Below, piece by piece: positions 14,441 through 63,081 of a stretch of 64,000 nucleotides of DNA (position 1 is its first letter; every line of letters starts with the position of its first letter). The notes beneath the pieces are model-generated. The model was given only the letters and a program-made list of their open reading frames with translations. It did not search any database and had not been told where the DNA came from. Both the position numbers and the translations under genes were made by a program. Source of the DNA: Cephalotus follicularis (Eukaryota > Streptophyta > Magnoliopsida > Oxalidales > Cephalotaceae); contig BDDD01005031.1 of assembly GCA_001972305.1 (NCBI GenBank), positions 17,930 to 81,929 on the forward strand. Direction: 5' to 3'.

Positions 14441-14675
14441 GTCGATGCTTTATGCTTTCAAAACTAAAACCGTCGACGCTTTCATATCTTAAACTGAGTA
14501 GTCGATGTTTCATACTTAGGCTTTCTAAAACGGTCGACGCTTTTATGTCTTAAACTTACAGTCGACGGTTTATGAGTTAAACCAAACATTCGACGCCTTA
14601 TGCTTTAAAACAAACCGTTGACGCTTTATACTTGTGCTTTTTTAAAACTGTTGACGCCTGGGGCTAAGCATCGAT
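14441..14675 (+). repeat. GTCGAC-type motif array in LTR of B
   Basis: Cores at 14441, 14472, 14501, 14533, 14561, 14589, 14617, 14650 and 14670 read GTCGAT, GTCGAC, GTCGAT, GTCGAC, GTCGAC, TTCGAC, GTTGAC, GTTGAC and ATCGAT. Most are followed by GCTT or GCCT. Spacing is 28-33 bp for most, 20 bp for the last. Confidence 0.85.
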
Positions 14676-15294
14676 GCTTAGTGCCTTACTCAACCCAAAC
14701 ACACTGTTTTACATGGTTTTCCATCCAAAAATTTTTTATCTTCAACCGGATTCCATAGAAAGCCTCCCTAAGGCTATGTAACCTATGGAAATCCTTAAGC
14801 ATCACTTTTGATTTCTAAATCGATGTTCAAGTGAAGTTTTTAGGAAAGTACTCAATAAAAGAGTCTTACGCAAATGGTTTCTAAATAGTTTTCAAAATGG
14901 TCAGGATAATTCCATTGGGATATCGAGACGCAGATATATTATTTGGACTTCCTCTCCATTGTTTTATGGATTTTAGAATGGTCAGGTACTTCCGTTGGGA
15001 CATCTGGGCTCGAATACTCCCATTTGAACTCCCTTTCCATTCATTATAACTTCGATAGGGACCAACCAAATGATATATGAAAAATTGATTACAAAATGGA
15101 TTATTGACACAAAAATGGCCATTGGATATGAAGAATGACTTATGATTATGAAATGAACTTTATATGATTTGACGGATGTGGATCCTATGAGATCGTTTAC
15201 AAAATGGTCCCTATTATTTAAAAACATACATGATTTTGGGTCACAACTACGGGATGGATTATTGGTTGTATTGTATGAGACTAACGAGATAACC

Positions 15295-15333
15295 CGTTCC
15301 TGACATTCATTTCCGTCGTGAATGTCAGGAACG
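15295..15333 (+). repeat. Perfect 15-bp stem-loop in LTR of B
   Basis: CGTTCCTGACATTCA (15295-15309) is exactly complementary to TGAATGTCAGGAACG (15319-15333) with a 9-nt loop. The same hairpin is conserved at 20927-20965 in the right LTR. Confidence 0.95.
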
Positions 15334-15339
15334 ATAGAC

Positions 15340-15450
15340 CATATACATTGCGCGGACCCCACACATGGGTGGACCCACATACATTAAGCGGACCCCACAC
15401 ATGGGTGGACCCATATACATTGCGCGGACCCCACACATGAGTGGACCCCT
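15340..15450 (+). repeat. Tandem repeat, about 37 bp, three units, in LTR of B
   Basis: Units carry ATACATTGCGCGGACCCCAC and CATGGGTGGACCC. The same three units recur at about 20972-21083 in the right LTR. Confidence 0.9.
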
Positions 15451-15716
15451 ACAAATCAAGAAATAAACGACGTGGTCGGTGTTATCTCATTCCTCACACC
15501 TCCACGACACCAAAAGTGCGTCGAGGGTGGGATGGACCCTATGGACTGGTTGTCCCTATGATTGATATGGATTGTTAGATGGATTGTCTGCCGGCCAATG
15601 GCCTTTGATGTAATTAGGACCAGCCTAGTATACCACTGCTTAGGGACAGTTGGTATACTGACGTCGTCCGCAATTGTCATTTATGCGCACGACATACCAT
15701 ACATATATACTATACC

Positions 15717-15975
15717 ATTGCACGCATATCACTATTATGCTGATGCACTACATGACATACATTGATATACTGTTGCACGCATATCTCCATTATGCTGATG
15801 CACTACATGACATACATTGATATACTGTTGCACGCATATCTCCATTATGCTGATGCACTACATGACATACATTGATATATATTGTTGCACGCATATCTCC
15901 ATTATGCTGATGCACTACATGACATACATTGATATATATTGTTACACGCATATCACTATTATACTGTTTCATGCA
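15717..15975 (+). repeat. Tandem repeat, 55-57 bp, about 4.5 units, in LTR of B
   Basis: Units begin CACGCATATC and contain ATTATGCTGATGCACTACAT. The right LTR has an equivalent array at about 21350-21675 with one more unit, so the array changed length after insertion. Confidence 0.92.
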
Positions 15976-16721: not shown

Positions 16722-19700
16722 GCTTGGTATCAGAGCCAGTCCTATGCTGGATACGCCAGGATAGGGTCCTTGGCTATGGGAATTGAGAATGATTGATGGC
16801 AATAAAGTGCTAATTGGAGTAACTTGGAATAGCGGAATCATAAGTGTTACATGGAGTTTCTTGGAATTATGAGTATAAGAAGTCGATACCTGAATCTTTG
16901 TCTCTTAAACAAGTAGATATGGAACAGAAAAGGAAAGGAACTACCATACCACATTTAGACTAGTCCCACGGTCGGGAATGATCGAGGACATACAATTTGA
17001 TCTAGTCTCACAGTTTTGTGGTATGGGCTGGTTATACAGTTATGGATCGTACGGTTGCAGACCGTACAACCATGAATCGTATGGCTAGGGATCGTGCGGT
17101 TATGGTTAAGGGATAAGATGGGGATACGGATATGATATGTTTGCGGATCGTATCGTTACAGATCGTAATGGTCCGGATTGTGATGGTATAGTCAGAAGAC
17201 AGTCCGTGTGTTTAGTTAACCCTCCTAAGGATATAGGATGGATTGGTTAGCAGCGCATTGTACCCATATGGATGGGTACGGGGAGGTCGTAACCTTCAAT
17301 ATATCAAGATAGTCTCAATTCCAGTTTATTGGGACTTTGGATCATCAGCCAGTTCAGATGATATCAGCCCTTCATGCTGATAGACTTATGGGACAAGGTT
17401 ACAATGGATATCTGGCATATGTGACCGATAACAGGAGACTGGTACCGAGGTTTGAGGATGTTTTTGTTGTTTGTGAATACCTGGACGTGTTTCCAGGTGA
17501 GTTAACATCCTTACCTCTAGAGAAGGGTTCAGAGTATCTGGTTGATTGTTTCTAGGGGTTTGGCAGAAATTCTCCTTTGTTTGTCAACCTCTCTGTCGAT
17601 CAACACGTCGACGCATTGGTTCATAGTGTCGACACCTATGAGTGAAGAGTTGACACCCTAGAGGTGAGCAGTTGACGCGATGACCATTCTTTCGCGTTTC
17701 TTTGCATTAACCAGTGTTACACGTTGACACCTGCAGTGATGATGTCAACGCCTAGAGGATGGTGTTGATGCCCAAATGTCCTGTTTTATATGAAGTTTCT
17801 GGTTTTGCTTGGGTTCTATCCTTAAAGGATTCCCTAGTTAGGCTAGCACCTAAGGCTACTGAGTAGGCCGTTTCTGAGGCCGCCGAGTAGTCTGGACTTG
17901 CTAGGGAGGCCGACTTCAAAAAGGCAATCCCTCCAAAACCCCATGAGATATACCAATAGTGTGACAGTGAGGGCCATGACATGTGAAGCGAACAGGTCAC
18001 AGACTGAGATGACCGTGGTAGATCCGTGTGGCACCGAGAGGAAGGGTCGACGAGCCTGACTACAGGACGTGTATTGTACAATTTATGGTATATGGTTATG
18101 GCATGGAAAAGATACGGTTATGGACCCGGATTCGCTCAGTTCATGTATTGCCTTGTGACTTATATGTCATGCTAATGTGAAACCAGAACCTTATGGAATG
18201 TTATGTAAGTTAACACCCCAATGGGACAATCTATTCATCTTGAAGAAGTGTGTGAGTCGTGCGCTATAAAGATAGCCGACCCTATATGATGGCAAACCTC
18301 CTAGTGTTGCCGATGGATGAGTTAGAAAGTGATTACTGAGATGGATCCATTTGGATATATATCATAATCGACAATCTCCCAGTCACGATATGGACCTTGT
18401 GGATGGATCGTAGTGTCGTTAAAGGGGATGATCAATTCCTTACTACATTCACAAACTTTATGGAAGGGGTGTGTAATCCATATCTTGACCATATCATCGT
18501 AGTCTCCTCCGATGATGTGTTAGTGCATTCCAAGCTTGCGGAATGCCATGGGAAGTGGTTGTACTAAACACGGAAGGTCTTACAAGATCGCCAGTGGTAT
18601 GCTAAGTTCATCAAGTATGGAGTTTTGTTATTGGAGGTAGTTTCCTTGCAGACGTTGACCACAGTGCTGGTTCGTCTATGGACCTAACAAGTATAGAAGT
18701 AGTGAAGGATTGGGAATGGTCGATGAACGTGACAATAGTCCGTGGTTTCTTAGGCTTAGCGGGTTACTATCGCCGCTTTGTCGAGGAATTTTTACGGATT
18801 ACCACACCTTTGACTCGATTGACGCAGAAAGACAGGATGTAAAGGATGACAGTGGTAAAGGGAGCTTCCAGGAGTTAAAACATCGTCTAATATCTGCGCC
18901 GATCATGGTTTTACCTGAGAGCAATGATGGTTTTGTGGTATATAGTGATGCCTCAGGGAACGGTGCGAATTGTGTTTTGAGGTTGTTTGGGGAATAAACC
19001 CCGACGTCTTAAGGAAAGTTGGAGCCTCAGGAGTGAGTTATTCCACTCACGACCTAGAATTTGCAGCGTTAGCCGTGCACCACACCAATGGAGACCCTGT
19101 CTATACGGCACAAAGTTAGAGGCTTTCACAGATCACAAGGGTCCGAAACATCCTTTCTCTTAGAAGGATCTAACTATGAAATAAAGAAAGTAGATGGAGC
19201 TGCTCAATGGTTACATCTGTGAGATCCAATGTCAACCAGGCGATGCTAATATGCTTGCAGACGCCTTAGGTTGCTGATTAGCTTGCTTGACGGTCTCCTA
19301 AGTTCAAGCAGGACCATGGTTGATGGATAGAATTGAGAAGCTCAAGGAATGGGTGGTGAATTGCTTAAGGCTACATTACATGATCAAGACGGATTCAAAC
19401 CAGAATCCTCGATTCATGGTGATGAGTTGATAAAATCCCAAGGCAGATTTTGTGCCGTTCACAACGAAAAGCCGATGGAGGAGCTATAGTTACAAACATA
19501 TCGCTCCAATTTCTCAGTACATCCGGCGATTATCAAGATGTATTGAGATCTGTAATTCAATTTGGTGGAATGATATGAAGAGAGAGTAGGTGTTGTTTCC
19601 CATAGACTAGCCTTACTACTCAGCCTACGGGATTGGAACCTACCATATAAGGTAGAGTATATGCCTAGATCATGGTGGCATCGCAGAAGCGTGATGGATA

Positions 19701-23441: not shown

Positions 23442-24466
<1,025 letters not shown>

Positions 24467-25490: not shown

Positions 25491-25941
25491 TGAATCGATC
25501 GACGAAATAGGTGGACAAAGTCAACAGCCTAACATGCCGATGCGAGTCATAAGGTCGCTTAATAGAATCCTTACAATACAATCAATCTGTCAATACAATG
25601 CCAATAAGTGGTGATGTCTAATGGAGAAATGAGAATGTTAGTCCAATGTTCCGAACTTAGATTCATTACACTTATGGCTCAATCAATCCATAGCCGATAG
25701 ACGGTGACAATCAAATTAACGTGATAGGAAAGAACATCTATCCAGTCAAAGAAAGTCACTGGGTCGTCGCCTATGGCTCAATAAGTCAATTTATCAATAC
25801 GAATCGATGCAATCATTAAAAACAAGGGAAGACTATTTTCAAACGCTTAAATACCTCAAGTGAGGCTCCAGTCAAGCGGAAATGTAAAAAGAAGTTGAAA
25901 ACAGCTTTAAAATAGTAAATTTCAAAAACATGGCATTAGGC

Positions 25942-26280
25942 GTCGACGCTATGGCCATACGCGTCGACGCTTAACATTCACTTTCAATAATAGGCTGATG
26001 AGCGTCAACGCCCTTGGCAGAAGGCGTCGACGCGTATCGCGTTTCTAAAAACCAGTAGGTTTAGGCGTTGACGTCCTTGGGTCAAGGCGTTGACGCATAA
26101 ACAGAAAACGTCGACACTGAGATGGCTTATATGATTTACGTTGACGTCTTACCTGGGAGAAAGAAATCCCAAGTCGTACGCGTCAACGCCAAAGATACGC
26201 ATTGATACGAATGTCGAATAAAACCCCAGTAGAATAGTTCAAACGCTCAAGGTGTTGACACCAATGGGCTAGGCGTCGAC
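25942..26280 (-). repeat. GTCGAC-type paired motifs in LTR of G
   Basis: GTCGAC at 25942 and 25963 (21 bp apart). GTTGAC at 26254 and GTCGAC at 26275 (21 bp apart). Related cores (GTCAAC, GTTGAC) lie between. The second LTR has the decayed equivalents at 32604-32945. Confidence 0.88.
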
Positions 26281-27303
26281 GTCTGTGCTGGGAAAAACAG
26301 TTTTTCAGCAGAAAATGAAGCCTATCTCAGGTCAAATTCCAGTTTAAAGTAATTCTTTGAAAACCAAGGGTTAAAATCACTCATTTAAGGTTAGTAAAAC
26401 TTGTTACAACCTTCAATTTACAGTTCCAATCTTCCTAGATCAGTTAGATCAAGGATTCAATATAAAAACCCTTATATCACGATTCAATACAATACAATCA
26501 CTCAATCATTCTATTCAATCAATCAATCAGTCAAGCAATAGACAATTCAAGTATAGAAATCCTACCTAGAAATGGAGCTTCAACAGTTGAGCTAACAGTC
26601 GATTCTATGCTGGAGAACTTGAGGAACCCGCTACTATCTTGCTCAAGCAGCAAGCCGAAACTTGCAAATGCTATTTGCTAATGGAGGAGTAACCCGGAGC
26701 TTCTGGGAAGAAGAAGAGAGGCTGCCCAGCAAGAGAGAGGAGGATAAGGATAGAGAGAGGAGAAATGGGAAAATGGGAGAAGTAAAGGAGAAATGGCTAA
26801 GGGTTGACTTATATAGTCAATCCAGCCATGTTTCTGAAACTCAGCCCATAATACCCCGACTATACATGAATATTATCAATACTATAAGCAATAGGTATAA
26901 AAATACCTCAATCTAATCATTTCCCAATATTCAATACAGTCCAATACAATCCAATATAGTACAATATATATGCATGAACAGTGCTAAAGAGCACAAAAGG
27001 GAATTTGGGTCATTACATTCTCTCTTCCTTAAAAGAATCGGGTCCCCAGATTAGTCAGTCGATCAATCAATCATATAGAAAGGGATATCTCTCTCTTATA
27101 TCATCCTCGCGCTCTCAGATGCGCTCCACTGAACCATGATACTGCTGCCATAGGACACTAACCAAAGGAATGGTCTTGTTCCTCAATACTCTGATATGTC
27201 CGTCAACAATCTGTATAGGAGTCTCAATAAAAGACAAGTCAAGATCTAGCTAAAACTGACTGTACTTAATGATGTGTGAGGGATCTCTAACATATTTGCT
27301 CAA

Positions 27304-31131: not shown

Positions 31132-33674
31132 TGTAACACTCCGCGCCCGGAGGACGGACACGTGGCATTACTCTCAATCCAATATACAATACAATGGTTA
31201 GGACTAGCAATATAAAAATACAAAAAACTAAAAAATTTACAATACATCTCAATATACGAAAGATACAATATAATTCTCTTGCAAAACCATGATAATTATC
31301 CAACACTACTATACAGTCATTCCATGAAATGATACAATATGATACTATTTATCAATCCTTTCGATACAATTTACAATACAAGCTCTGTCAAAACAAAACG
31401 GTCATGCGGTCAAATCGAATCTTCAAATCTTTTGTCTGCTACTACTTGTTGCCTTACTTGTGCCACACAATAATGCACACACAGTCTCATCCCGAAGGAT
31501 GGGGTTAGCCACAAGGCTAAGCAGAACCCCTATGCAACATGTTTGCATGTAGAAGGTGCAATATCTATGACAGATTATACATTATTATTGTGCTGTGTAC
31601 AATATCAATGCATGATATGGCAAATGCATGCATACAATTGGCAATCTAACTATCCATATGACACTGGCCCATAAAAGTGCATATGGATAGGATCTATAAC
31701 AATCAATCAATGGCAAACACTCGATGGTGGTGTATAGAACACCCAATCAATCAATCATATCCTATAGAGCATGCGACCTCGGATCAATACAATGTCAATC
31801 AGAGGCAATGATCAATCCCATGGAAGGTAGTCCTTCGAAAAATGTGGGAGATCTATCTACTTGTCTCAGACTAATCAGGTCTGGGACCATAGATCTTCCA
31901 GCCTATGTCTAGGTCAATACAATATCAATGAGCTTTAACCATGGGGAAGCTACTACCGTCTGGGAGCTACGGCCCTCCGGGAGCATCAATCGTTAATCAA
32001 TAACAATACTACTCGTCAGTAGGTCAATACAATATCGATGAGCTTCAACCATGGGGGAGCTACTACCGTCGGGGAGCTACGGCCCTCTGAGAGCATCAAT
32101 TGTCAATCAATAAAGTATTACTCATCAGCACGTCAATACAATACAAAAAATGAATCGATCGATGAAATAGGTGGACAAAGTCAACAGCCTAACATGACGA
32201 TCCTAGTCATAAGGTCGCTCTATAGAATCCATACAATACAATCAATCTGTCAATACAATGCCGATAAGTGGCGATGTCTAATGCAGAAATGGGAATACGC
32301 GTCCAACATTCTGAACTTAGATTCACGACACTTATGGATCAATCAAGCAATCAATAGCCGATAGACGGTGATAATCAAATTAACGAGATAGAAAAGGACA
32401 TTTATCTAGTCAAAGAAAGTCACCGGGTCATCGCCTATGACTCAATCAGTCAATTTATCAATACAAATCGATGCAATCATTGAAAACAAGGGAAGACTGT
32501 TTTCAAATGCTTGAATACCTCAAGTAAGACTCCGATCAAGCGGCAATGTAAAAAGAAGTTGAAAACAGCTTTAAAACAGTAAACTTCCAAAACATGGCAT
32601 TAGGCGTTGACTCTATGGTCATACGCGTCGACACTTAACATTCACTTTCAATAATAGGCTAATGAGCATCAACGCCCTGGGCAGAAGGCGTGGATGTGCA
32701 TCGCATTTCTAAAAACCAGTAGGTTTAGGCGTTGACGTCCTTGGGTCAAGGTGTTGACGTGTAAACAGAAAACGTCGGTACTGAGATGGCTTATATGATT
32801 TACGTTGACGTCTTACCTGGGAGAAAGAAATCCCAAGTCTTACGCGTCAATGCAAAAGATACGCATTGACGCTAATGTTGAATAAAACCCCAGTAAAATA
32901 GTTCAAAAGCTCAAGGCGTTGACGCCAATGGGCTAGGCATCGACGTCTGTGTTAGGAAAAATCATTTTTTAGAAGAAAGTGAAGCCGATCTCAGGTCAAA
33001 TTCCACTTAAAAGCAATTCTTTGAAAACCAAGGATTAAAACACTCCTTTAAGGTTAGTAAAACTTGTTACAACCTTCAATTTACAGTTCCAATCTTCCTA
33101 GATCAGTTAGATCAAGGATTCAATATAAAAACCCTTATATCATGATTCAACACAGTACAATCACTCAATCATTCAATTCAATCAATCAATCAGTCAAGCA
33201 GTAGACAATTCAAGTAGAGAAATCCTACCTATAAACAGAGCTTCAACAGTTGAACTAACATTCGATTCTATGGTTGAGAACTTGAGGAACCTGCTGCTAT
33301 CTTGCTCAAGCGGCAAGCTGAAACTTGCAAATGCTATTTTGCTGATGGAGGAGTAACCCAGAGCTACTGGGAAGAAGAAGAGAGGCTGCCCAGCCAGAGA
33401 GAGGAGGAGAAGGATAAAGAGAGAAGGAGAAACGGGAAAATGGGAGAAGTAAAGGAGAAATGGCTAAGGGTTGACTTATATAGTCAATCCGGTCATGTTT
33501 CTGAAACTCAGCCCAAAATACCACGATTATACATGCATATTATCAATACTATAAGTAATAGGTATAAGAATACCTCAATCCAATCATTTCCCAATATTCA
33601 ATACAGTCCAATACAGTATAATATCTATGCATGAACAGTGCTAAACAACACAAAAGGGAACTTGGGTCATTACA
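31132..33674 (-). repeat. Right (5') LTR of element G
   Basis: Full-length partner of 24467-27017. Starts TGTAACACTCCGCGCCCGG and ends GGGTCATTACA. CpG motifs are more often TpG/CpA than in the partner. Confidence 0.88.
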
Positions 33675-34740
33675 TAACTTGCCATGCATGAGGTGTTTTT
33701 GGAGTAAATATAGATTGTATTGCATGTTTTTACATGTTGGTTTTAGTGGTGTTAAGACGCATTGAAGAAGACGAAGTTCTGGTCTTCTTTAACCGTCGAT
33801 GCCTTGACTGGTTACGCGAGGATTGAATGCATGGTTTTGTTGACGCTTAAAGGAAAAGTGTTGACACTTTAGTCTATTACGCGTGATAAACGACAGTGGA
33901 AACGTTGACGCCTGAGGTTCCTACCTCAAAGCATCAACGCAAAGAGACATGGCATTGACGCGTAAAGCTTCTGTACTAAGCGCTGACGCTATGTGTTAAA
34001 GCGCCGACACCTAGAGGATATAAGCGTCGAGGCCTAGAGTTAAACGGTGACGCTTAAGTGACTGGTTTAAACGTTGACGCCTAGACGGTACACGTTGACG
34101 CGAAATGAGCCCGTTTTGCATATTAGCATATGTTTGCATTTCATATTGCTATGGATTGAATTGTAATTGGATTTTGGAATGATTCTAAAATGTTTTATCA
34201 TTTGGAAAGTGCATACATGATTTTAAAATAAATCGTTATTTTACATAAAAATGTATATATTTTCTAGGTATTGGGAAAACGTATGTTTTCGAAGGGTTGA
34301 AATATTGTTTCCAAGGATTGTTTATACGTTTCAAATAAATTCATTGTTCAAGTATTTTATAACTTATAAATTACTTGGAAACGGATTGATTGATGGATTG
34401 TTATTGGATTGATGTTGCGCTAGCTGCGTGACGGAGATGTCATCTATGGCTAGGGGCGAAATCTACGCCTAGGGGCTAGGAGATGGCTAGGGACTCCCAC
34501 ACTTTTTGGTTACTAAACACAGAGTGCAAGTGACCTGGTTGCTGAACAAAGAGTGCGAGCAACCTTGGATTGATTGGCTGAACCTTCTTCGAGTCTTCCT
34601 GAGACGAGGCTGAAGCATATGCACGACGTCGGGGCCAGGAGATGGCGACGCGCTTCTTGCGGGATTGGATTGATTGGTCCTTTGGACATGATTGATGGAT
34701 TGTATGGTTGTAGCCATTTGGCATGGTTGCTTACCTATTG

Positions 34741-34799: not shown

Positions 34800-35002
34800 G
34801 AGATATATTTAACAAGAAAGACTTTCCTTGCAGTTAATTCTGTTATGAAAGGAGTCGATGCTTTAGGAAAGGAGTCGACTTCTTTTTCTGCAGATGGCAT
34901 TTAGACTTTGATATTCAACTTGTAATTCCTTGCACATAAATCAACTTAGTTAGATGCAAATATGTTATCATCAAAACAAGGATTGAGACTTAAACGTCAA
35001 CA
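34800..35002 (-). repeat. Possible fragment of another LTR inside element C
   Basis: Does not match the right LTR of C. On the minus strand it starts TGTTGACGTTTAAGTCTC and continues with TTGTTTTGATGATAACA, resembling the start of a copia-type LTR. It holds GTCGATGC and GTCGACTTC at about 34854-34880. The usual LTR end and primer site of C are not seen here. Tentative. Confidence 0.4.
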
Positions 35003-39645: not shown

Positions 39646-42235
39646 TGTAACACCCAGAATTTCCATTCGATGTTTTATTGTAATTCTCAATGTAATTTAT
39701 CAGGAATTAATGAGAAATGATAAATTTTCCAAATTATAATATTGAAATTTTAGTAAAGAATTTTAAGAGTGTTGTATTGACTTGAAATGTTGAAAATTGG
39801 CCATAAGCGTCGACGCCCAAGAGTAATGCGCCGACGCCCAGAGAACAAAATGCTCGTATAAGTTTTATGCCCTCAAAGTATAGACGCCAAGCGATAGCGT
39901 GGACACCAATGAGCAAACAGAGTTAAGCGTCGACGCTAAGAAGAAAGTGTCGCCGCTTAAAGACAAAAAATAGATAGATCTAAACACTGTCAGAAAAACG
40001 TGTGAGGAGCAGGTGTTGACCACTGTTGGGACGCTTTGTCACACCAGTAAGTGGTTTTTTAGACACATTTCCATGATTCCTGGCCTGCCACGACAGAAAA
40101 GAAGATTGAGGAAGACACATGGGTGTCATGCGACAGGTGAGAAGTGGAGAGAGAAAGAAGAAGATGCTTAGTGCCATGCATGTGAGGGGAAGGAAAAAAG
40201 AGAGAGGAAACGTGCATAAAATGCACACTCTCCATCTTCTTCAACCAGACCTGAAAAGAGAAAGAAAGAAAGAGAAACAGTGAGAAAATCAGGAAAAAGA
40301 GAGGAGAGAAAGAGAGAGATCATTTCTCCATTGTTGGACCAAAGCTTGAAAGCTTGGAGTTAGACCTGGTTGCAACTACTAGACCAGACTTAGAGCTACT
40401 GGGGAGCTCAAAAACACCACTGTTCTGTGAGCTTGAAGACGTGGACTTGGATTTCTAACTTGGAATCTGAGGTAGGGATCATATACATGCAATTTTGAGT
40501 TCAAAAATAGTAGATGATCATTGATGATATGCATGGCTATTGTGGATTGTTTGATTGATTTCATGGTTACTGTGAGCAGTTACCCTACCATGCATGAGGT
40601 GTTTTAGAGTAAATATAGATTGTATTGCATGTTTTTACATGTTGGTTTTATTGGTGTTAAGACGCATTGAAGAAGATGAAGTTATGGTCTTCTTTAACCG
40701 TCGACGCTTACTGGAAAAGTGTCGACGCCTTGACTGGCTACGCGAGGATTGAACGCCTGGTTTTGCTAACCTGCTGACGCTTAAAGGAAAAGCATCGACG
40801 CTTTAGTCTGTTACGCGTGATAAACGACAATGGAAACGTTGACGCCTGAGGTTCCTACCTCAAAGCATCGACGCCAAGGTTGAAACGCTAACGCTTACGG
40901 GTCCATGCCTTGAGCGTCGATGCCAAGAGACATGGCATTGACGCGTAGAGCTTATGTACTAAGCGCTGATGCTAAGTGTTAAAGCACCAACTCTTAGAGG
41001 ACATAAGCGTCGACGCCTTGAGTTAAACGGCGACGCTTAAGTTACTTGTTTAAACGTTGACGCTTAGACGGTACACGTTGATGCGAAATGAGCCCGTTTT
41101 GCATATGGGCATATGTTTGCATTTCATATTGCTATGGATTGAATTGTAATTGGATTGTTGAATGATTCTAAAACGTTTTATCATTTGGAAAGTGAATACA
41201 TGATTTTAAAATAAATCGTTATTTTGCACGAAAATGTATATATTTTCAAGGGATTGGGAAAATGTATGTTTTTGAAGGATTGAAATATTGTTTCGAAGGA
41301 TTGTTTATACATTTCAAATAAATGCATTGTTCAAGTATTTTATAACTTATAAATTACTTGGAAACGAATTGATTGATGGATTATGATTGGATTGATGATG
41401 CGCTAGCTGCGTGACGGAGATGTCATTGATGGCTAGGGGCGGGATGTACGCCTAGGGGCCAGGAGATGGCTAGGGACTCCCACACTTTTTGGTTACTAAA
41501 CACAGAGTACAAGTAACCTAGTTGCTGAACACAGAGTGCGAGTAACCTTGGATTGATTGATTGAACCTGCTTTGAGTATTCCGAAGACGGAGCTGAAGTA
41601 GGAACACGACGTCGGGGCCAGGAGATTGCGACACGCTTCATGCGGGAATGGATTGATTGGTCCTTTGGACATGATTGATAGATTGCATGGTTATAACCAC
41701 TTGGCATGGTTGCTTACCTATTGGCACACACACATGTGATATATTATGTATTTCATCATAATGCATTCATTATATGACATTTATTATCATTGACCCCAAA
41801 GTGTATATATATTTTTCCTACTTCGCCAGTGGATTTGACCTAACCCTATCAATTTTAGATTGACGCAGCGGATCGACATCGCTTATGCGTGTGGAAAACG
41901 AAGAGGAGTTTAAGTTGTATTTCTTTTGAGAAATGTCAAACTGGTCACTGTATTAATGAATCATGTATTGATGGATAATTATTAAATGGTTAATGTATCG
42001 ATTGAATCAGTTCATGCTCGGTTTTGAGGGTGATTAACAATGATGATATTATATGGTTGTAACATGTAGTATGGGATGCATGTTACATAGTTGGATTCAA
42101 CTTATGTTTTAAATGCTTCCGCAAATGTTGATACATGGGTTGAAAAGTTTTAATTTTTTCGTAAATTTTTGATAAGCTGAATACATTTTAATTGTCGTGA
42201 CCTCCGAGTCGATATGTATAGAAACGGTTGTGACA
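39646..42235 (+). repeat. Right LTR of element C (about 2.59 kb)
   Basis: Starts TGTAACACCCAGAATTT right after the polypurine tract TTTGAAGGAGGGGTGGA and ends GTTGTGACA before the target copy CTAAC. Motif pairs at 39809/39830 and 40700/40721 are each 21 bp apart, with further cores to 41080. No microsatellite expansions. Confidence 0.88.
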
Positions 42236-43114: not shown

Positions 43115-44889
43115 TGTACACTGAACTGGACCCGCGTAGGAGACACTATTTGGATAGTCGCTATTCTCGTGTCAGTAGTGACTCCTACTTGTTGCGGTTG
43201 TGTATAAGTGATCATCACTTAGCGAGTTCTCCAACGCGTCTGATCCTTAGACCTGAGCGACTACTCTATATTGTATGGAGACGGTTATGCTTTGATCTAC
43301 ACCTTACCCTGTCCTTACGCAGGGCTGGCAATCGGGTGGTTTTTGGGTATGATCGAATCTATACGAATATAAGTGAGTGCACAATATGGGATTGTCACAC
43401 CTGAGCGAAGGTGATCGATAGTATTATGGTCTGATTATACTTTGGACTTATGAAATCCTTGGCCAAGGTTGAGGTAGACTGGAAATTAGATTTCCGGAGA
43501 GTTTACCAAAGGTCCTAGTAATGATCAGATATTTTAGTCATTGAGGTACTATCTAGGGTTGACACATATCCATACCCTAGACCTCAATCGAGGCCAAGCA
43601 TGACAAGGGATTATAGTACACGCGAACCGACGATTTAGAAAATCTAGGGTTTATTGAGGTGTGGGAAAATTAATTAGATTAATTTTTTCCATCTGGATAA
43701 TATTTGGATATTATTCCAATAGTATTTAAATTGGTCAAGGACCATTTAGAATGGCTAAACCGGACCTTAGGGGTGTTTCGGTAATTTATGAACACCTCTT
43801 GTTTTAACCAAGATTTTAAAGGGTCCCTGCCTTATAATGATTAGTTCTTTAATATGTTGGACATATTAAGTCTTGGTGTCAAATATCGGTTATATGGATT
43901 TTGCATTTTGTGGAAACACATATGTTTGATCTTACTTAACCAATATTCGAAGGGTACATGAGATCACTAAAAGAGTTAGACACTTATTGCTTCACTGGCC
44001 AGACAAAGCATCGACGTCTTTTAGAAAGACGTCGATGCTTAACGTTTTTAGAGACGTCGATGTCTTTTAGAAAGCGTCGATGTTTTTTTTAGTGCCACAT
44101 TGCATGAGCGTCGATGTCCTTTGGAAGGCGTCGACGTCTTTGAGCAGAACGTGCAATCTGTGCACGAGCTCACTTTGTGGGCACATTTTCTCTCTCATCT
44201 CCAGCAGCAATCTCCCATTCTTGCATGTTATGGGAACGTGGGATCATGTCCATAGACTCTCTAGGAGTGAGGACCATGATCCTAAGTGAATGGGAGAGTG
44301 GGAGAGAGAAGAAGCAGGCTAGTGATAAGCATTTTCTACAGAAAATGTAAAGGGGTGGTAGAGTTTTTGCTGGGCAAGAGAAAGTCGAATTTCTCTCTGT
44401 AGATTGTGTGTGTTCCCTTCATTGTTAAACATCAAGCAAGTGCTTATCTAGGGTGGATTGATTTTGACATCTTTTGTCAATATCAATTTATCTTTTCTAA
44501 GCCTTGTGAGAGAGAGAGAGTTCATACACTTTGTTCTTGGTTCTTGCTGGTTGGAGTAGCTTCTATACCAAGGATTTTGGAAGCAACGTGTTTAGTGTCT
44601 TCCCAAGCGTGTAGCGGTAGAGAAAGAAGGAGCCTTCACCCGCTGGTATATCTCTTGGTCCTTCTCTTCTTGCCATGCTTGTGTGTCACCATTGTATGCT
44701 ATGGTGACACCAATTCAATTTTGTTGATGATGTGGTGATCCATGTGGTCTATGGTGATGCCATAATGGACTGGTTTTAATTATTTAATGGGTGTTCTTCC
44801 ACTGCTATTTTGTATGTTTTTGTTTTGTTCTACACCCTATATGCCTTAGTCCGTTTTTGGCACCTGATTCGGTTTATCCGTTTCCATCA
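43115..44889 (+). repeat. Left LTR of element D
   Basis: 1.78 kb. Contains GTCGAC-type pairs at about 44010-44140, for example ATCGAC at 44010 and GTCGAT at 44031. The two LTRs differ by a block of about 70 bp near 44310-44380 and by scattered substitutions. Confidence 0.9.
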
Positions 44890-46624
44890 TTGGTATCAAA
44901 GCGTCCCACATCATCCTTGATTGAATTTATGCTTTAGATAATGAACTGATTAACGGTTTAATTGCTGGAGATGTTTTATGATCAAACTAGATTTTCAAAG
45001 TGCCTTAGTGAAAATTGCATGAAATTGGATTTCATTGTGTTTTTGACCTGGTGATTTTGATGAAATGTGTTTAGAGTTATGTTTGGAACATGCATAGTGC
45101 AATTTGGATTGCCAGATTGGAATGCCAAAGTCTAAACCATTATTTTCTGTATTTTTTGAAATGTAGAAACTGCCCAGCGGGTTTTAGACGTCGACGTTCT
45201 TGATAGACGTCGATGTCTTGTTCATCTTCTCGTGAAATGCGTCGATGTTTTTGTTAAACGTCGACGCCTTGTTCATAAGTTCCCAGGAAACGCGTCGATG
45301 TTGTTGATAACGTCGACGCCTTTTTCAACAGTTCTCGATAAACGCATTGATGCTCATATTATGGATCGACGCCTTTTTCAATTGTTTTATTGAAATGCAT
45401 CGACACCTTTTTGGAAAAGCGTCGACGCTTTTAAAAAAAACTGTTTTATTAATAAAATTGGATTTTATACATTTTGGCACTTAGAAAATCAAAAATCATT
45501 GTTTGATTTAGTGGGAGTTTGATCAGTTAACAATCCTTAAATTAAATTGTATGATTGGTTATTATTTATGGCATTTGTTTTATTTGTGTTTTATAATATT
45601 GGATATTATATATATAAGTCTTATGCACAATGGATGGCCCGAAAAAGGACATTGACCTAGTTTATGGTTTTCTATGTGTGAATGGATGTTATTTATTTAT
45701 TACTTTTAAAGGTCTGTAATAAGGTGTCTGCGTGCACCATTTATTTTTCCTTACTTTTGTTATTTCTCCTTGTAATTTTTTAAATGTAATTTCCTTTTCA
45801 AAATGTAAAGTACTTTTATGTAAATGAAGACCTTACAAGGAGAGATGGAGGAAAGGAGAAATGGAGTACAAGACTTTTGAAGGCCATGTATGCATGGTTA
45901 TTGTTGTAATAAATAGTTTTTAATATCTTTACACCTAGGAAGACCTAATAGTGATTTTGGGCTCAAGTCACTACTGCTAATGTCCTTGCCAATCCATTGA
46001 GATATTTTAGAAATATGTCCAAGGTGCATAAGATACATGTCTTGCATGTTAAACCGTAATTAATTGGAATCGGCTAATACAACCAATGACTTAATTAATT
46101 GCATGGTATTTAAAACTTGAGACCGCAAATTCCCTCACTTTAATAATAAGTCTTAACGTAGGAACCCATGGAGTGGTTCCCCGTGGCCTTCCACAATTTT
46201 TGTTGAGTAGTGTTCCTGGGTTGTTGGTTTGTCATGCCCTAGCTGAGGCTGATGACTTGGGGATATTATGTCAACGTCGGTGTTGGGCACCGCAAAGGGT
46301 GACTATGTTTTAGCACTTGGACACGCCTATGTGTGAGTGTTAAAACTAGTGCATTCCAATAAAAAATGTGGGTACTTGACTTATTAAGATTCTTATGGTT
46401 TGTCATGCCCTAGCTGATGCCATATTGAATCTAAGGCCGAATTCTATGATTGGATCTTGTATTGGATACAAATTGGCAAGAAAGCCTACCCATTGGATAT
46501 ATTATAGTTTGTCATGCCCTAGATGAGGCATGTTGTGTTCCCAGAGAAGGAATACCTTCTTGAAGGAAACAGTGGGAGTAAGGTGGAACTCAAGGAGTTG
46601 CCATAGGTAGAAACCACACAAAAG
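44890..46624 (+). other. Element D: untranslated leader
   Basis: Begins with the primer site. A GTCGAC-type motif array occupies 45186-45445 (for example GACGTCGACGTT, GCGTCGATG). Three copies of GTTTGTCATGCCCTAG followed by CTGA or ATGA lie at about 46228, 46398 and 46507. A short integrase-end remnant (EGNSGSKVELKEL) is seen at about 46560-46600. Confidence 0.65.
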
Positions 46625-48478: not shown

Positions 48479-50089
48479 GTGATCATCACTTAGCGAGTTC
48501 TCAAACTCGTCTGATCCTCAAGCTTGAGCGACTATTCTATATTGTATGGAGACGGTTATGCTTTGATCTCCACCTTACCCAGTCCTTACGCAGGGTGGCA
48601 ATCGGGTGATTTTTGGGTATGATCGAATCTATACGAATATAAGTGAGTGTGCAATATGGGATTGTCACACCTGAGCGAAGTTGATCGACAGTATTATGGT
48701 CTGATTATACTTTGGAGTTATGAAATCCTTGGCCAAGGTTGAGGTAGACTGGAAATTAGATTTCTGGAGAGTTTACCAAAGGTCCTAGTAATTATCATGT
48801 ATTTTAGCCATTGAGGTAATATCTAGGATTGACACATATCCTTACCCTATACCTCAATTGGGGCCAAACATGACAAGGGATTATAGTACACGCGAACAGA
48901 CGATTTAGAAAATCTAGGGTTTATTGAGGTGTGGGAAAATTAATTAGATTAATTTTTTCCATCTTGATAATATTTGGATATTATTCCAATAGCATTTAAA
49001 TTGGTCAAGGACCATTTAGAATGGCTAAACCGGACCCTCGGGGTATTTCGGCAGTTTATGAACACCTCTTGTTTTAACCAAGATTTTAAAGGGTCTCTGT
49101 CTTATAATGATTAGTTCTTTAATATGTTGGACATATTAAGTCTTGGTGTCAAATATCGGTTATGTGGATTTTGTATTTTGTGGAAACACATATGTTTGAT
49201 CTTATTTAACCAATATTCGAAGAGTACATGAGATCACTAAAAGAGTTAGACTCTTATTGCTTCACTGGCCAGACAAAGCGTAGACATCTTTTAGAAAGAC
49301 GTCGATGCTTAACGTTTTTAAAGACGTCAATGTCTTTTAGACAGCATCGATGTTTTTTTTAGTGCCATATTGCATGAGCGTCAATGTCCTTTGGAAGGCG
49401 TCGACGTCTTTGAGCAGAACGTGCAACCTGTGCAAGAGCTCACTTCGTGGGCACGTTTTCTCTCTCATCTCCAGCAGCCATCTCCCATTCTTGTATGTTA
49501 TGGGAACGTGGGATCATGGCCATAGACTCCCTAGGAGTGAGGATCATGATCCTAAGTGAATGGGAGAGTGGGAGAGAGAAGAAAGTCGAATTTCTCTCTG
49601 TAGATTGTGTGTGTTCCCTTCATTGTTAAACATCAAGCAAGTGCTTATCGAGGGTGGATTGATTTTGACATCTTTGGTCAATATCAATTTACCTTTTCTA
49701 AGCTTGGTGAGAGAGAGAGATTTCATACACTTTGTTCTTGGTTCTTGCTGGTTGGCGTAGCTTCTGTACCAGGGATTTTGGAAGCAACGTGTTTGGTGTC
49801 TTCCCAAGCGTGTAGCGGCAGAGAAAGAAAGAGCCTTCACCCGCTGGTATATCTCTTGGTCCTTCTCTTCTTGCCATGCTTGTGTGTCACCATTGTATGC
49901 TATGGTGACACCAATTCAATTTTGTTGATGATGTGGTGATCCATGTGGTCTGTGGTGATGCCATAATGGACTGGTTTTAATTATTTAATGGGTGTTCTTC
50001 CGCTGCTATTTTGTATGTTTTTTTTTGTTCTACACCCTATATGCCTTAGTCCGTTTTAGACACCGGATTCGGTTTATCCGTTTCCATCA
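48386..50089 (+). repeat. Right LTR of element D
   Basis: 1.70 kb partner of 43115-44889. The motif array recurs at 49276-49420 with several extra C-to-T or G-to-A differences. Confidence 0.9.
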
Positions 50090-51620: not shown

Positions 51621-51883
51621 CGGCCAAATGGAAAGGAATGAAGAACTCCCCTGCACTCACATGCAGTATACCGTCATAGACAATAGTACACCGTCAATCC
51701 AGGTATGGAACCCGGGGGCAGTTCTCCAAAGCATCCCATCATAGACAATGAGAATACTAAGGAGAGTTGATTCTCGGACGTACCCTTTACCACCGACCGA
51801 ACCCATGCATCCTATCCGCACATCCCAGTGCATCCCATCCGTACATCCCAGTGCATCCCACATCTCAGAGGAACCAAGAACAA

Positions 51884-51977
51884 AAGGAGAGATCGTCTGA
51901 CACAAACAATAACTGTCAGAGGAACAACATAAGGAGAGATCGTCTGACACAAACAACAACTGTCAGAGGAACAACAT
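51884..51977 (-). repeat. 47-bp tandem duplication in LTR E
   Basis: Two nearly identical units with GGAGAGATCGTCTGACACAA and TGTCAGAGGAACAACATA. Confidence 0.92.
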
Positions 51978-55827: not shown

Positions 55828-55922
55828 ACTCCCACTACATCTTCCAACAGGAAGTCCTTCTCAAGAAAAGTAGCATGCCTGGATACAAACACTTTGTTGT
55901 CAGGTGGATAATAGAAGTAATA

Positions 55923-57054: not shown

Positions 57055-57060
57055 GATGGC

Positions 57061-58119: not shown

Positions 58120-59599
58120 TGTTTATAACCATAAAGATTTGGTCTTTAATCTTTTAGGTGTTTTTCCTCTCAGGCTCCCACTGTTTTACGCGAATCCCAT
58201 AACCCTGAAATATTATAGGAAACAAGAAATAACAATCCAAGTCTCATGGATCTCATTTCCAAGTGGGGATCAGTATCCTACAACATATTCAATATAACAT
58301 TGACGGGGGCCAAAACATTATACTGAATCTTGCAATTAGGAAAACTCTTACCAACCATACAATAGTATGATTCCCGATCATGGCTTTTGCCTCTAGTCTA
58401 CATATGACCTTGACGAGAGCCAAAACGCCATATGCATTCTAGTCAAGTTCAACCTACCATTAAACACACGATGAATTGACGAATGTAAATCTTGACAAGG
58501 GCCAAAACATTCACATCTATAATTCATCCATATGTACAATCTCATGTTCAACTTATATAGATGTTCCCAAAAAAGGTAAGCCTTGATGGGGGCCAAAACA
58601 CTCACAATTTCCAAGAGCATCTATATCAGTTGCAATGGCAGAAGGCAACGACCAAACACTCTCTTGTGCCCGTTTCGCTTCAACTTGATATCATGGTATA
58701 ATTGTGGTATAATTGAGGAATAATAATATAACTCTCATTATTATTATTATTTATCCAACCCTTTATTAATCAATTTACAGGTAGATGGCATATTATGGAG
58801 AGGTCGTTGGAACCTTTAGAGCATAATTTAGACATGCATCACATACATACTATAAACTAATGGCAGGTTATGGACTTTTCTACTGTGACTTGTTTGACTC
58901 TCAAACAAGCTGCTGGTCTCATTCCTAGTCATGTTATTACAATTATACATTCGCTCCCATACATGCATGGGTCTTGTAATATCTTCTTTCTTCTCAATCT
59001 TGCTTCCAGTGTGACTCTCACTCTTCAATTACATAAACCAACTATAAACTACAAAAACCTTGAAATAAATCAAGGGCAGTTACAAGGAGGTGAAGAAGAA
59101 TTATAGATACAAATGAGGAGAGAGAAGAAAGACATGCAAGTCTCAAAAATTATTACAACCCAAAAATTATGAAAAATAAAAACATACATTCAACACTTGA
59201 ATTAAATAAGACAAACTAGGTCAAGTCCATAGCTATACCATCATGCATATTCAATCTCATTGAACTAACTAATAATATTGATAGATATGTTTCTACAAAT
59301 GCAGACAATCGATTGGGTAATAATAGAAGAACTCTTTTTTGTCTTTTCATGCCAAACCGTTGACGCTTTACTACATAAGCGTAGACGCTTTTCTCAAAAG
59401 CGTTAGTGCTTAGCACGTAAGCATTGACGTTTTTCCCAAAAGTGCCAGCGCTTATGCGTCTTCGTGCGATTGTTCAACAGTAGTATCTGCAATGCTTCAC
59501 ATGCTTCCCTCTCACATATTTAACCTAAACAATTCCAACATATCATCAATAACATGTTTCTAACTATATATATGCATCAAATCCGCTCTGATACAAATA
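58120..59599 (-). other. Element F: leader with GGGCCAAAACA repeats and primer site
   Basis: Non-coding between gag and the right LTR. Four copies of TTGACGGGGGCCAAAACA-like sequence lie at about 58299, 58409, 58491 and 58576. A decayed 21-bp-spaced motif array is at 59359-59450. The minus strand reads TTTGTATCAGAGC at 59584-59596, a variant primer site next to the LTR start at 59600. Confidence 0.7.
59359..59450 (-). repeat. 21-bp-phased motif array in leader of F
   Basis: Cores GTTGAC, GTAGAC, GTTAGT, ATTGAC and GCCAGC start at 59359, 59381, 59402, 59423 and 59444. The spacing is 22, 21, 21 and 21 bp although the cores themselves are degraded. Confidence 0.8.
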
Positions 59600-60816
59600 T
59601 GTTGGAATCTCATTAATTATAATTAGGAAATTATTATCCTAATTATTCTCTCATAATTGTATTGAAAATATCAGTCTGTATTGTGTGTGACCCTATGGGT
59701 TCACTATTACGCTGGCCGTAGGATTAAATTGTGACACTCACAATTATCCGATTAAATATTTATTATCACATAAAAAATATTATCTTGGACATTTCGAATT
59801 AAAACTCTTTTAATTCTTTTCTTCCAAAATTAATTTATCAATTTAATATTGGGCATCTTACTAGTCGACAGCGACATCTAGCAATGCATAACGACTCCCA
59901 GGTAATATGACTAATTTGCGAACTACTATTTACAGGTACATGCACGTATAGTCCCTCCATTGACAATGCTCTGATTAAATCTAGGGTACGATTATGTCAG
60001 ACCCCAATAATGTAATCTTTAGCCTCATGGCTATCTTTCATTAGCCTAAATAATATTAGAGGGGACCTAAATAATATTAGAGGTGCCACTCTAATATTCA
60101 ACCGATGATATCACACTCTTGACATCGTGACTAGCCTGGCCAGGCGCTTAATCGCTAACGAAAATCATCCTGAGCATAATCTTCTTTTATTAGAAGAAAT
60201 GGATTCATTGTTGCCAGTTCACATGCCTCCATACATAAGCATACCATGTCCAACTAATGTCTGTATACACTTCATAGAATATGTATTTAAGTATCATCAA
60301 AACACAACACCCTTTGCACAAGACATCCAGTGATGGCTCATGTCCAAGGACTACATGCACTGTTGTAAAATTAGAACTCTCTCTGACATGTAAGTAAAAC
60401 TCCATACAGATATTCTATCAATAGTCACCTTTAATGAACTCGTCAAATGAGCACCCACGTAGTTGTCATAGCATCATCCATGCGAATGAGTGTGAGATCA
60501 GTCATCTTCTGCTTACCTATCTGACAGTACGTGCTGGTCTATCCGGATTGATCATGCCCTGAATGTCAATCATATGACCAGGAAGATTCGAAATAAAGTA
60601 TACCGAGATTCTAACTCTCACATCACGATCTCATCATGAACTTAGTTCTCTAACTTTATTCCAGGACATTCATTTACAATTAATTAAGCATGTATTAATG
60701 AAACGAACTCATAGCCATTGATAAAACATAAACATCGTTATTTTATTTATAAATTGTTTACACAAGATATAGTAAATACAAGCTCAACACTGGCTCGTAG
60801 CACTTTATCTCTAATA
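59600..60816 (-). repeat. Right (5') LTR of element F
   Basis: Starts TGTTGGAATC and ends TCTCTAATA, followed by the target copy GAAGA (60817-60821). Shorter than the left copy. Confidence 0.85.
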
Positions 60817-60821
60817 GAAGA

Positions 60822-61895
60822 TCAACTCTCCGAGTTGAATGAAGTTGTGTTTGGAAAAGGTGTAGCAGCTATTAAGATTACTGGTTCGGGAGAGTACACA
60901 ATTGGACTAAACGAAGAATCTTCTTTGAACTTCCTTATTGGAGTAAAGTACTAGTCAGACACAAGTTGGACGACATGCACATCGAAATGTGAAGGGAAAA
61001 ATGAATGACCACCTACAAACTCGACGTGATCCAAAAGAGTTGAGAATAAGACATAAATTGCTTGCAAAACATGTGGATGGGTGGTTCATATTGCCGCCAA
61101 CAAAATTTTCATTGAACAGTGAACAATTCAGACAAGTATGTGAATGGTTGACAAAGATTAGGTTTCGAATGGCTATGCCTCAAACATATCTCAATGTGTG
61201 AATGCTTCAGAGAGTAAGGTTTCGGGTTTGAAGAGCCATGATTGCCATGTCTTCATGCAGAGGCTTTTTCCCATTGCATTATCTGAGTTCTTGCTAAAAA
61301 ATATCATTGTCGTATTGGCAGAGGTCAGTGTGTTTTTTCGGAATATATGTTTAGCACCAGAGTAACATTGTTCAAACAATTTTCAAAATGGAGAAGATAT
61401 TTCCTCCATCGTTTTTTGATTCGATGGAACATCTTTTCGTCCACTTAGCTTATGAAGTGAAAGCATGTGGGCCGATTCAAAATATGTGGATATATCCAAT
61501 TGAGAGGTACATGTACTTGTTAAAGCACTTGCTGAGAATATTCACATATGTGTCATGCATTCTAAATACATATTTAATTGTAGAGAGTTGTACAATGTTA
61601 AAAATACATTTAAGAACAAAGCTCATGTAGAAGGGTCGATTACCGAGGCATACATTATTCGCTAGTTGACAACGTTTTGTTTGTATTATTTCAAACCTAA
61701 TGTCCCTACAAGGTTGAATAGACCTGATCAAAACTGCGATGGGGATGCCATTGCATGTAACATATTGCTTTCCATATTTAGTCATCTGAGTAAAGCACTG
61801 GGCAAGACAGATAAAAGAGATAGGACAGGCAGACAGTATGACGATGCATATTTGTACATCCTTTTTAACTGCGATGAAGTCAGCCATCTGGTTGA
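60822..61895 (+). pseudogene. CACTA TNP2-type transposase, third part with DUF4218 region
   Basis: Continues from GEEVED at 43042: EDQLSELNEVVFGKG (60817 onwards), then in a shifted frame HNWTKRRIFFELPYW and LVRHKLDDMHIE, the most conserved block of plant TNP2. KMNDHLQTRRDPKELRIRHK and QFRQVCEWL follow. About 61.20-61.38 kb reads SHDCHVFMQRLFPIAL-type sequence. 61388 onwards is MEKIFPPSFFDSMEHLFVHL, YEVKACGPIQNMWIYPIERY, the DUF4218 domain that follows the transposase core. Several frame changes are visible, and about 15 codons expected after MHIE are missing. Ends CDEVSHLVE at a GTAAGT donor (61896). Confidence 0.9.
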
Positions 61896-61979
61896 GTAAG
61901 TATACATATATATTGTACTTTATTTATACAAATTGTCCAAGTTGAACATGTAATCTAACTTATATTCTTTGTTGTAGTG
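61896..61979 (+). other. Intron in the CACTA transposase gene
   Basis: GTAAGT donor at 61896, T-rich tract and TTGTTGTAG acceptor at 61979. 84 bp, AT-rich. Joining the sides gives HLVDEHEQ, the SYLEEH-type stretch usual in TNP2 at this point. Confidence 0.75.
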
Positions 61980-62245
61980 AGCACGAACAATGAATTAAAT
62001 CCTAAGATTACCCCTACACAAATTGAAAAAGAATGTGATGCACGCTTTGTCAAATGGTTTCAAGGCCGTGTAAGTAATGCACACTTTTTTTAACAAAGCA
62101 TCTATCAAAGGGAAAGGGTATGTCATCAACGGGTACAAGTTTCACACCAAAGATGCATCGATGACCTCAACAACTCAAAATTGGGTTGTCATGGTCAAAG
62201 GGAGCACTTGGAATGATAGTTGTAGTGACTTCTACGGAGACTTGG
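61980..62245 (+). pseudogene. CACTA TNP2-type transposase, DUF4216 region
   Basis: NPKITPTQIEKECDARFVKW (one frame change from the preceding DEHEQ), then KGKGYVINGYKFHTKDASM, STTQNWVVMVKGSTW and CSDFYGDL, characteristic of DUF4216 in the C-terminal half of CACTA transposases. Interrupted at CTTGG (62241-62245) by solo LTR H and continued at 63087. Confidence 0.88.
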
Positions 62246-63081
62246 TGTTTAGCATAAAAATGTGTTGTTTTTAACGCATTATTTGTGATATTTTTATGCT
62301 TGGAATAGACTACTTTGGTTGTGTTATATTGATTTTCAGGTACAAGTGTTAAATCACCAAAGTGCAAGAATATTACCCAAAAGTGTGCAAAATTGAAGTT
62401 AAAAGTTTAAAGATTGAAGAAATGCCAAAATTCTACAGAAAACAGGGCAAAAGAGTCGACTTCTTTCATAAAACATCGATGTCTTTGCTGGGTTTACACA
62501 AACACATCGATGCCTTTCATTCAAGTCGATGTCTTTTCTGGGTTTAAATAATAGCGTCGACGTCTTTCAAGAAGAAGTCAACGTCTTTTCTGGGCAACAC
62601 AACAATCTTCAAAGAGCTATGAAAAAGAAGTCGACGTCTTTCAAGAAGAAGTCGACGCCTTTCATGAAGATCGATTACGTCTTGTCATCACCGCCGCACT
62701 CCGTATAGACCTAGCTCTCGTTGTTTATCAAGGTATGATCGTTCAACTCAATGGAATTGTTCAATACAATCTACGGTGAGTTTCTTTACCCCAAAACCGT
62801 TTCTTTATTATATATTCTCTTTACTTTTATTTATTGCATGCTTTATTTCTTAGTATTTTAAATTCAACGTTTTTAATTATCCAAGTCTTAATTTCTTGTT
62901 TTGTTTATTTATTTTCTTTTGCATAATTAGGAGTAGTTTTTAATCGCTTATCTCAAAATCGGTATACTTCGTATAGGTTGAATAAATTATAACTAGTTTA
63001 CGTTTCCCTGCGTTCGACCCGTTACTGCATGATCCGTGCACTTGCGGCTATAAATTTTAAAACATTCTAAATCAGTGAACA
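62246..63081 (+). mobile_element. Solo LTR H (836 bp) inside the DUF4216 region
   Basis: Starts TGTTTAGC, ends AGTGAACA, with a perfect duplication CTTGG at 62241-62245 and 63082-63086. The protein reads YGDL on the left and VNILEFDFYRKDNKVILF on the right, in frame if one duplication copy is removed. No internal region is present. Family uncertain; the end (CCCTGCGTTCGACCCGTTAC, CTTGCGGC) resembles gypsy-type LTR ends. A perfect duplication suggests a fairly recent insertion. Confidence 0.85.
62452..62660 (+). repeat. GTCGAC-type motif array in LTR H
   Basis: Cores include GTCGAC at 62556 with GTCAAC at 62577, and GTCGAC at 62630 with GTCGAC at 62651. Both pairs are exactly 21 bp apart. The spacer is TTTCAAGAAGAA-like. 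GTCGACTTC lies at about 62455 and ATCGATGTC-type cores at 62480-62530. Confidence 0.92.

Follow-up and report, generated by a model that had tools for sequence, protein, structure and literature searches.

Two described systems appear to be the closest known precedents for the motif arrays studied here, the heat-responsive clusters in long terminal repeats (LTRs) of the ONSEN type and the target arrays of VANC. Heat-responsive elements occur in the LTRs of ONSEN/COPIA78, COPIA37, TERESTRA, and ROMANIAT5, and the accessible part of that report describes Brassicaceae COPIA clusters of about 4–6 nGAAn units that were gained in several families and that, in ONSEN, grew by duplication (PMC5059998). 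Immune-responsive W-boxes are described for EVADE in the accessible text of another report (PMC12786077), and VANDAL elements are described, again in accessible text, as encoding VANC, the targets of which form tandem repeats (PMC5735166). In this study we analyze a stretch of 64,000 nucleotides of the Cephalotus follicularis genome (the window) on contig C5031 of the 1.577-Gb assembly, a nest of LTR retrotransposons in which arrays of one short palindromic motif recur in elements of both the gypsy and the copia superfamilies. The nest comprises copia A on the minus strand, split by the inserted gypsy B; the chromovirus gypsy C on the plus strand, with protease and chromodomain, split by gypsy G nested within it on the minus strand; copia D on the plus strand and copia F on the minus strand; and unclassified repeats at 50.1–52.8 kb and 62.4–62.7 kb, the latter called H.

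Like the ONSEN clusters, as far as the accessible text describes them, these arrays repeat a single short motif, here a predicted host-factor site, several times within an LTR or control region. They differ in that the published clusters lie in COPIA LTRs, whereas the present ones, with as many as about 14 copies of a 10-bp palindrome, occupy gypsy and copia elements, leaders as well as LTRs, and perfect sites number 73,186 genome-wide. With the VANC target arrays they share a short motif that is dense in noncoding regions of transposable elements, diverges rapidly, and splits into dialects (PMC5735166 and PMC10398659, in their accessible parts); they differ from them in belonging to LTR elements, in having mostly unrepeated spacers, and in that a shared trans-acting gene was neither seen nor searched for. 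Asymmetric neighboring sites do run head-to-tail, but the spacers between sites are only 31–32% identical. The arrays are best described as a known kind of cis-array that is unusual in its scale and in spanning both LTR superfamilies, and in none of the precedents compared, in so far as their text was accessible, is one motif common to copia and gypsy at such a scale. Titles and abstract openings of the open-licence literature hold no report of such arrays among the matches listed, which does not show them to be unpublished, and the listed matches to the word itself are, by title, seemingly unrelated work in which the word possibly stands in a primer. With this locus, the sharing of cis-regulation between two LTR superfamilies becomes testable at genome scale.

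The motif is the palindrome RCRTCGAYGY, written RCRTYRAYGY once changes of the central CpG are allowed, and its clustering into arrays is confirmed and lies well outside what chance would give. The initial annotation of this DNA had reported arrays of a GTCGAC core in 13 intervals, all of which contain sites, and comparison with dinucleotide shuffles bears out their density: GCGTCGACGC with at most one mismatch occurs 33 times in the window vs. 0.31 expected (100 shuffles, largest count 2), and GTCGAC 38 times vs. 6.0. All 58 exact RCRTYRAYGY sites of the window fall inside 14 intervals totalling 3,214 bp, with none in the other 60.8 kb, as do 95 of the 147 sites with at most one mismatch; these intervals were drawn around the arrays, so that the counts describe clustering. 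The pol or internal segments of A, C, D, and G hold 4, 3, 0, and 1 sites at the same tolerance, where 3.5, 4.4, 1.4, and 3.6 are expected, and sites are near chance or lower in one A LTR, one F LTR, LTR E, and the 50.1–52.8 kb repeat. Copia A and LTR E had been described as lacking the array, and rightly so, the first A LTR and E having no site even with one mismatch allowed.

Beyond the window, the whole genome contains 73,186 perfect copies of GCGTCGACGC as against 121 of the reversed word, and the 16-mer AAAGCGTCGACGCTTT is found 3,552 times vs. 5. Arrays are present in 9 of 20 random 10-kb stretches by one rule, in 7 by a second, and in 11 by either (loci L006 and L011 by the second only; L013, L017, L019, and L020 by the first only), and the random sample holds 93 exact RCRTYRAYGY sites in 198,007 bases compared with 4–8 in five Markov shuffles. 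Extrapolation from these 198 kb, a small and clustered sample, gives a rough figure of 0.7 million degenerate sites genome-wide. The first rule also yielded the set of 41 arrays and 237 exact sites used below, in which both LTRs of an element are counted; 20 of the loci behind it, distinct from the random stretches, had been picked because two sites lie close together in them and are thus non-random, and the arrays of B and F are too weak to enter the set.

On balance we lean towards reading the arrays as homotypic site clusters that a single dimeric protein, probably one of the host, would bind on DNA and that selection has kept in gypsy as well as copia elements. Each array would be a cluster of predicted RCRTCGAYGY sites for a single dimeric, sequence-specific protein that reads two nearly independent half-sites and occupies some 18–19 bp per site, so that neighbors would come to lie mostly 19–22 bp apart, about two helical turns, and less often near 27–32 bp. 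The clusters would stand in noncoding sequence, the LTRs and 5' leaders of chromovirus gypsy and copia elements, and would expand through head-to-tail duplications and point mutations, with selection holding the motif while the spacers drift; they would probably boost transcription of the element, set its timing, or hold off silencing. A host origin of the protein is made probable by the sharing of the site among unrelated elements, and one cellular factor may act on many elements at once. A more far-reaching form of this reading, which we put forward tentatively, is that a single host protein acts as master switch for a retrotransposon regulon spanning both superfamilies, that gypsy and copia converged on its palindrome, and that half a million or more degenerate sites titrate the factor. 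If one factor does read all the arrays, it would be a single switch for a large share of the plant's mobile DNA, many LTR families being turned on together; the load of sites (the perfect copies and the rough degenerate estimate given above) would be a striking case of factor titration, and the dialects described below could mark an arms race.

The distance between neighboring sites is strongly constrained. Genome-wide, 3,321 exact pairs lie 19–22 bp apart and only 29 lie 10–18 bp apart. Of the 337 adjacent spacings in the sample, 148 measure 19–22 bp, and only 19 measure 10–18 bp, a class for which random placement gives 135 (lowest of 500 runs, 111); ten overlapping matches at 6–8 bp fall outside both spacing classes. 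Further peaks stand near 29–30, 41–43, 49–52, 68–73, and 91–93 bp. A coding repeat, with 21 bp as seven codons, was considered and rejected, since spacings of 19, 20, 22, and 29 break the frame.

The two half-sites vary almost independently. Classed by their outer letters, the genome's sites number 73,186 G-G, 72,727 mixed, and 21,696 A-A, where independence expects 71,602, 75,896, and 20,112 (F = 0.042), and shuffling within arrays reveals no coupling at the five core half-site positions (p 0.29–1.0). A palindrome that paired with itself would be expected to show a larger excess of symmetric forms. For these five positions, self-complementarity of the single site was also rejected as the conserved feature; flank letters are coupled in a palindrome-filtered set, in which different families are mixed and the number of mismatches is limited.

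A site is asymmetric when one half is A-type and the other G-type. Among exact neighbors of this form 19–22 bp apart in the genome, 1,268 + 1,233 = 2,501 are head-to-tail and 88 + 99 = 187 complementary (cross-product ratio 0.0056), and within arrays 114 of 139 asymmetric centers agree, whereas 2,000 null runs average 96 and reach 109 at most. The arrays are directional, and pairing is not the feature that is kept. These counts disfavor the proposal that neighboring palindromes form RNA or cruciform hairpins, pairing in the transcript for packaging, dimerization, or translation. It is true that the RNA folds of the D leader array and of one G LTR array are much stronger than those of shuffles (z -5.5 and -7.4) and that, in the sample, neighbors at 19–22 bp are slightly more complementary than copies from the same array (7.38 vs. 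7.21 pairs, p 0.019), as are the spacer ends (1.87 vs. 1.70, p 0.0085); the excess of complementarity persists against a global shuffle, where neighbors at 40–53 bp show it likewise. Any array of palindromes should, however, fold strongly, same-side odds ratios in the sample (4.8 and 8.6) exceed the facing ones (2.1 and 3.3), the halves of one site are nearly independent, and the paired positions do not covary, complementary pairs being so outnumbered by head-to-tail ones. The hairpin proposal is thus largely refuted, and we give it very little credence. No known RNA family of Rfam matched at gathering scores, and the C LTR had no match in a plasmid collection.

Directionality is expected of tandem duplication as much as of a factor that reads orientation, which brings in the question of whether the arrays have any function at all. 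In the functionless alternative, tandem duplication of about 20 bp, together with template switching between co-packaged RNAs, would spread a satellite-like word. The predominance of head-to-tail neighbors and the coherence of orientation are in its favor, as are true tandem repeats at 45189–45381 and 62448–62569. The spacers point the other way. By BLAST over 600-bp flanks the 41 arrays fall into 8 unlinked groups (23 arrays with gypsy C and G, 8 with copia D, 4 of H type, and five groups of one or two), and identity within arrays is 0.82 for the core, a value forced high by the definition of a site, 0.48 for the immediate flanks (three bases to either side), and 0.31–0.32 for the spacers, so that the unit has not simply been copied; apart from a few arrays, we do not find a unit copied whole with its spacers, as in a satellite. 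Duplications of 10–17 bp would also retain the 10-mer, yet pairs at such distances are nearly absent, and among the roughly 50 pairs listed of the 3,321 places the spacers are of many different kinds. Between relatives, moreover, the motif outlasts the spacers, as set out below. We regard an origin without function as rather improbable, though it is the most substantial of the alternatives.

Of the three routes by which the initial annotation had proposed to explain the arrays, exchange, independent amplification, and selection, the first finds no support in the form of plain transfer of whole arrays, because spacers of unlinked groups are 26–29% identical, about the level set by base composition. 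Amplification finds support in the head-to-tail order, and the best fit is selection for a common site of DNA binding, because the spacing rule goes beyond random placement, the spacers are near-random, and the motif outlasts the spacers between relatives. Vertical descent has had more of a part than that annotation granted: arrays occupy matching positions within two clades, that of C (L008, L009, L012, and L021) and that of D (L004, L024, and more weakly F), although L024 lacks the LTR array of D.

The strength of selection can be gauged from how motif and spacer columns, defined alike in both sets of comparisons, have changed. When the two LTRs of an element are compared, the motif shows more differences than the spacers do (51/416 vs. 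71/876, p 0.019; four alignments, three elements), an excess of change after insertion that is expected of CpG-rich sites, and between relatives it differs less (261/953 vs. 607/1777, p 0.0003; six alignments), the contrast between the two comparisons having a p of 0.012. The gain of motif over spacer is clear in C–L008, C–L012, and G–L020 and small in D–L004. In this small sample the pattern argues modestly for selection on the motif.

A number of observations weigh against a selected binding site. L008–L009 and L012–L021 show no gain of motif over spacer, the relative pairs overlap, and the sites were themselves defined by the motif. Identity between relatives is 73% (692/953) in the motif and 66% in the spacers, but 76% (4025/5296) in the LTR outside the arrays; that the motif is no better kept than this surrounding LTR weakens the explanation we favor and strengthens the functionless one. 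Copia A has no array even though its reverse transcriptase (RT) is nearer to that of D (72% amino-acid identity) than is the RT of F (60%). Adjacent spacings of 24–60 bp do show a phase at 10.3–10.5 bp (R 0.24–0.25 vs. 0.08 in a smoothed null, p <= 0.0002), but the phase tests count related copies as independent, which makes their p-values optimistic, and in all-pairs spectra at distances above 24 bp a period of about 21 bp, which also accords with functionless duplication, is stronger than that of 10.3 bp, so that helical phasing cannot be separated from a unit of about 21 bp. The spacing of head-to-tail neighbors may likewise stem in part from duplication of a unit of about 20 bp.

Arrays differ in dialect between G-type GCGTCGACGC and A-type ACATCGATGT sites, with a heterogeneity chi2 p of 7e-21 at half-site position 0. 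In L020, which is related to G and aligns with it in pieces at 74–85%, the A shares at half-site positions 0 and 2 are 79% and 71%, while the G array at 25940–26282 has 23% and under 12%. At the place of the G array, L020 5465–5790 carries mostly ACATCGATGT-like sites, and BLAST does not align the array stretches. Sites centered on ATCGAT occur in L020 and L013, and GTTGAC variants occur as well. In the C clade (both second arrays of C and the four related loci) a center that has changed usually reads TTGA in the element's own sense and seldom TCAA, and TTGA-centered sites have the W-box-like form RCGTTGACGC.

Fast turnover and dialects also agree with a VANC-like system of anti-silencing, in which a factor encoded by the elements or domesticated from them strips methylation from control regions and co-evolves with the arrays. 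VANDALs, however, are Mutator-like DNA elements and not LTR elements, and the spacers here are mostly not repeats, so that we consider such a system unlikely. Still less probable, with only a slight chance of being right, is the idea that GTCGAC acts as a core of the C-repeat/dehydration-responsive element (CRT/DRE) type and that the arrays make the elements cold-inducible. GTCGAC, which forms the central six letters of the G-dialect site, is given in the accessible text of two reports as the CRT/DRE core preferred by barley HvCBF2 (PMC4222965, PMC4553201), and a cold-inducible LTR element, MCIRE, with a CCGAC core is described in the part seen of another (PMC5059998). As far as those partial accounts go, the HvCBF2 core leaves the outer RC..GY, the ATCGAT dialect, and the palindrome itself unexplained. 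Conservation of the flanking C and G is about equal to that of the core, and CGAC is not present in every site, being absent from ATCGAT-centered sites (in L020 and L013) and from GTTGAC variants. AP2/ERF proteins are not known to depend on a palindrome of this kind. VOZ, NAC, WRKY, and BED-finger proteins were considered as further candidates for the binder.

The arrays of the window are collected in Table 1; the weak ones are the two in B and the one in F, with a single exact site each. Of the six LTR elements named in the initial annotation, C and G carry arrays in their LTRs, D both in its LTRs and in its leader, F in the leader, and B in a single LTR and in its interior. The D leader array lies outside the LTR, 3' of a sequence resembling a primer-binding site (PBS), and the F array, on the minus strand, is likewise behind a PBS-like word, the F LTR at 59606–60814 having no site with at most one mismatch and the other F LTR one. 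Sites are indeed present at both places reported in B, but 14441–14675 belongs to a segment found in one LTR only and 17597–17770 is internal. H, earlier called a solo LTR, does contain an array, and we treat it here as an unclassified repeat.

Table 1. Motif arrays and isolated sites in the window (mm, mismatch)
Feature	Position	Strand	Remarks
B left LTR, segment without counterpart in right LTR	14430..14690		weak: 4 sites at <=1 mm, 1 exact
B internal region between protease- and RT-like remnants	17590..17780		weak: 4 sites at <=1 mm, 1 exact
Gypsy C left LTR, array 1	23603..23752	+	LTR offset 162-302
Gypsy C left LTR, array 2 (right part, past nested G)	33793..34101	+	
Gypsy C leader, isolated sites	34852..34879	+	1 at <=1 mm by IUPAC scan
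Gypsy C right LTR, array 1	39807..39956	+	
Gypsy C right LTR, array 2	40698..41084	+	offset 1053-1430; 13 sites, 8 exact
Gypsy G, one LTR copy	25940..26282	-	11 sites, 9 exact; LTR offset 737-1070
Gypsy G, other LTR copy	32604..32946	-	12 sites, 7 exact in scanned interval
Copia D left LTR	44008..44137	+	6 exact sites
Copia D leader, before pol frame	45188..45428	+	10 sites, 8 exact; ~300-540 nt 3' of PBS-like word at 44891
Copia D right LTR	49278..49407	+	5 sites scanned from 49299; start from LTR alignment
Copia F leader, just inside 5' LTR	59357..59430	-	4 sites, 1 exact; PBS-like word at 59585
Unclassified repeat H	62455..62658		7 sites, 3 exact in scanned interval; relative in L019

The statement that the LTRs are otherwise unrelated is correct for gypsy against copia, where BLAST finds only the motif and chance-level matches, but not throughout: the A and D LTRs can be aligned over 535 columns at 63% identity, the D leader aligns with the leaders of A and F, and the internal parts of B and G align with each other.

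Any place of the arrays relative to a start site is tentative. A TATA-like CATAAAA near offset 570 of the C LTR, picked out by eye, would put array 2 about 0.5–0.85 kb downstream, and in G TATATAAG at offset ~204 stands before its array at the same distance as C array 2 from CATAAAA. The scan for TATA-like sites in C omits the site at offset ~570 and gives 1592 and 1703, with both arrays then upstream. Plant regulatory motifs that act downstream of the start site in a dose-dependent manner are described in the accessible text of PMC11525189; the likeness lies in a regulatory motif downstream of the start site, the core there being GATC as against TCGA here.

Some further features of the window concern the elements themselves. 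In B, a 1.6-kb part of the left LTR (13375–14977) is absent from the right LTR, where 20597–20610 stands opposite it. Since the relatives L008 and L009 align across the breakpoint, to 13743 and 13723 respectively, the right-hand LTR has probably lost at least part of the segment, with loss rather than insertion probable as far as about 13743. Both B LTRs contain a 55-bp tandem array (15711–15966 and 21319–21662) that differs in length between them. The left LTR of C has a (GA)n microsatellite at 23943–24041, and the right LTR is shorter there by about 74 bp or more. The repeat at 50090–52846 shows a strong strand composition skew and contains tandem repeats of 130, 47, 41, and 23 bp; a relative with 80–87% identity lies at 1446–3103 of L013. 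Elsewhere in the sample, the whole length of L022 (1–10000) is taken up by a tandem satellite, its period about 163 bp, that matches L005 1609–2902 at about 69–74%.

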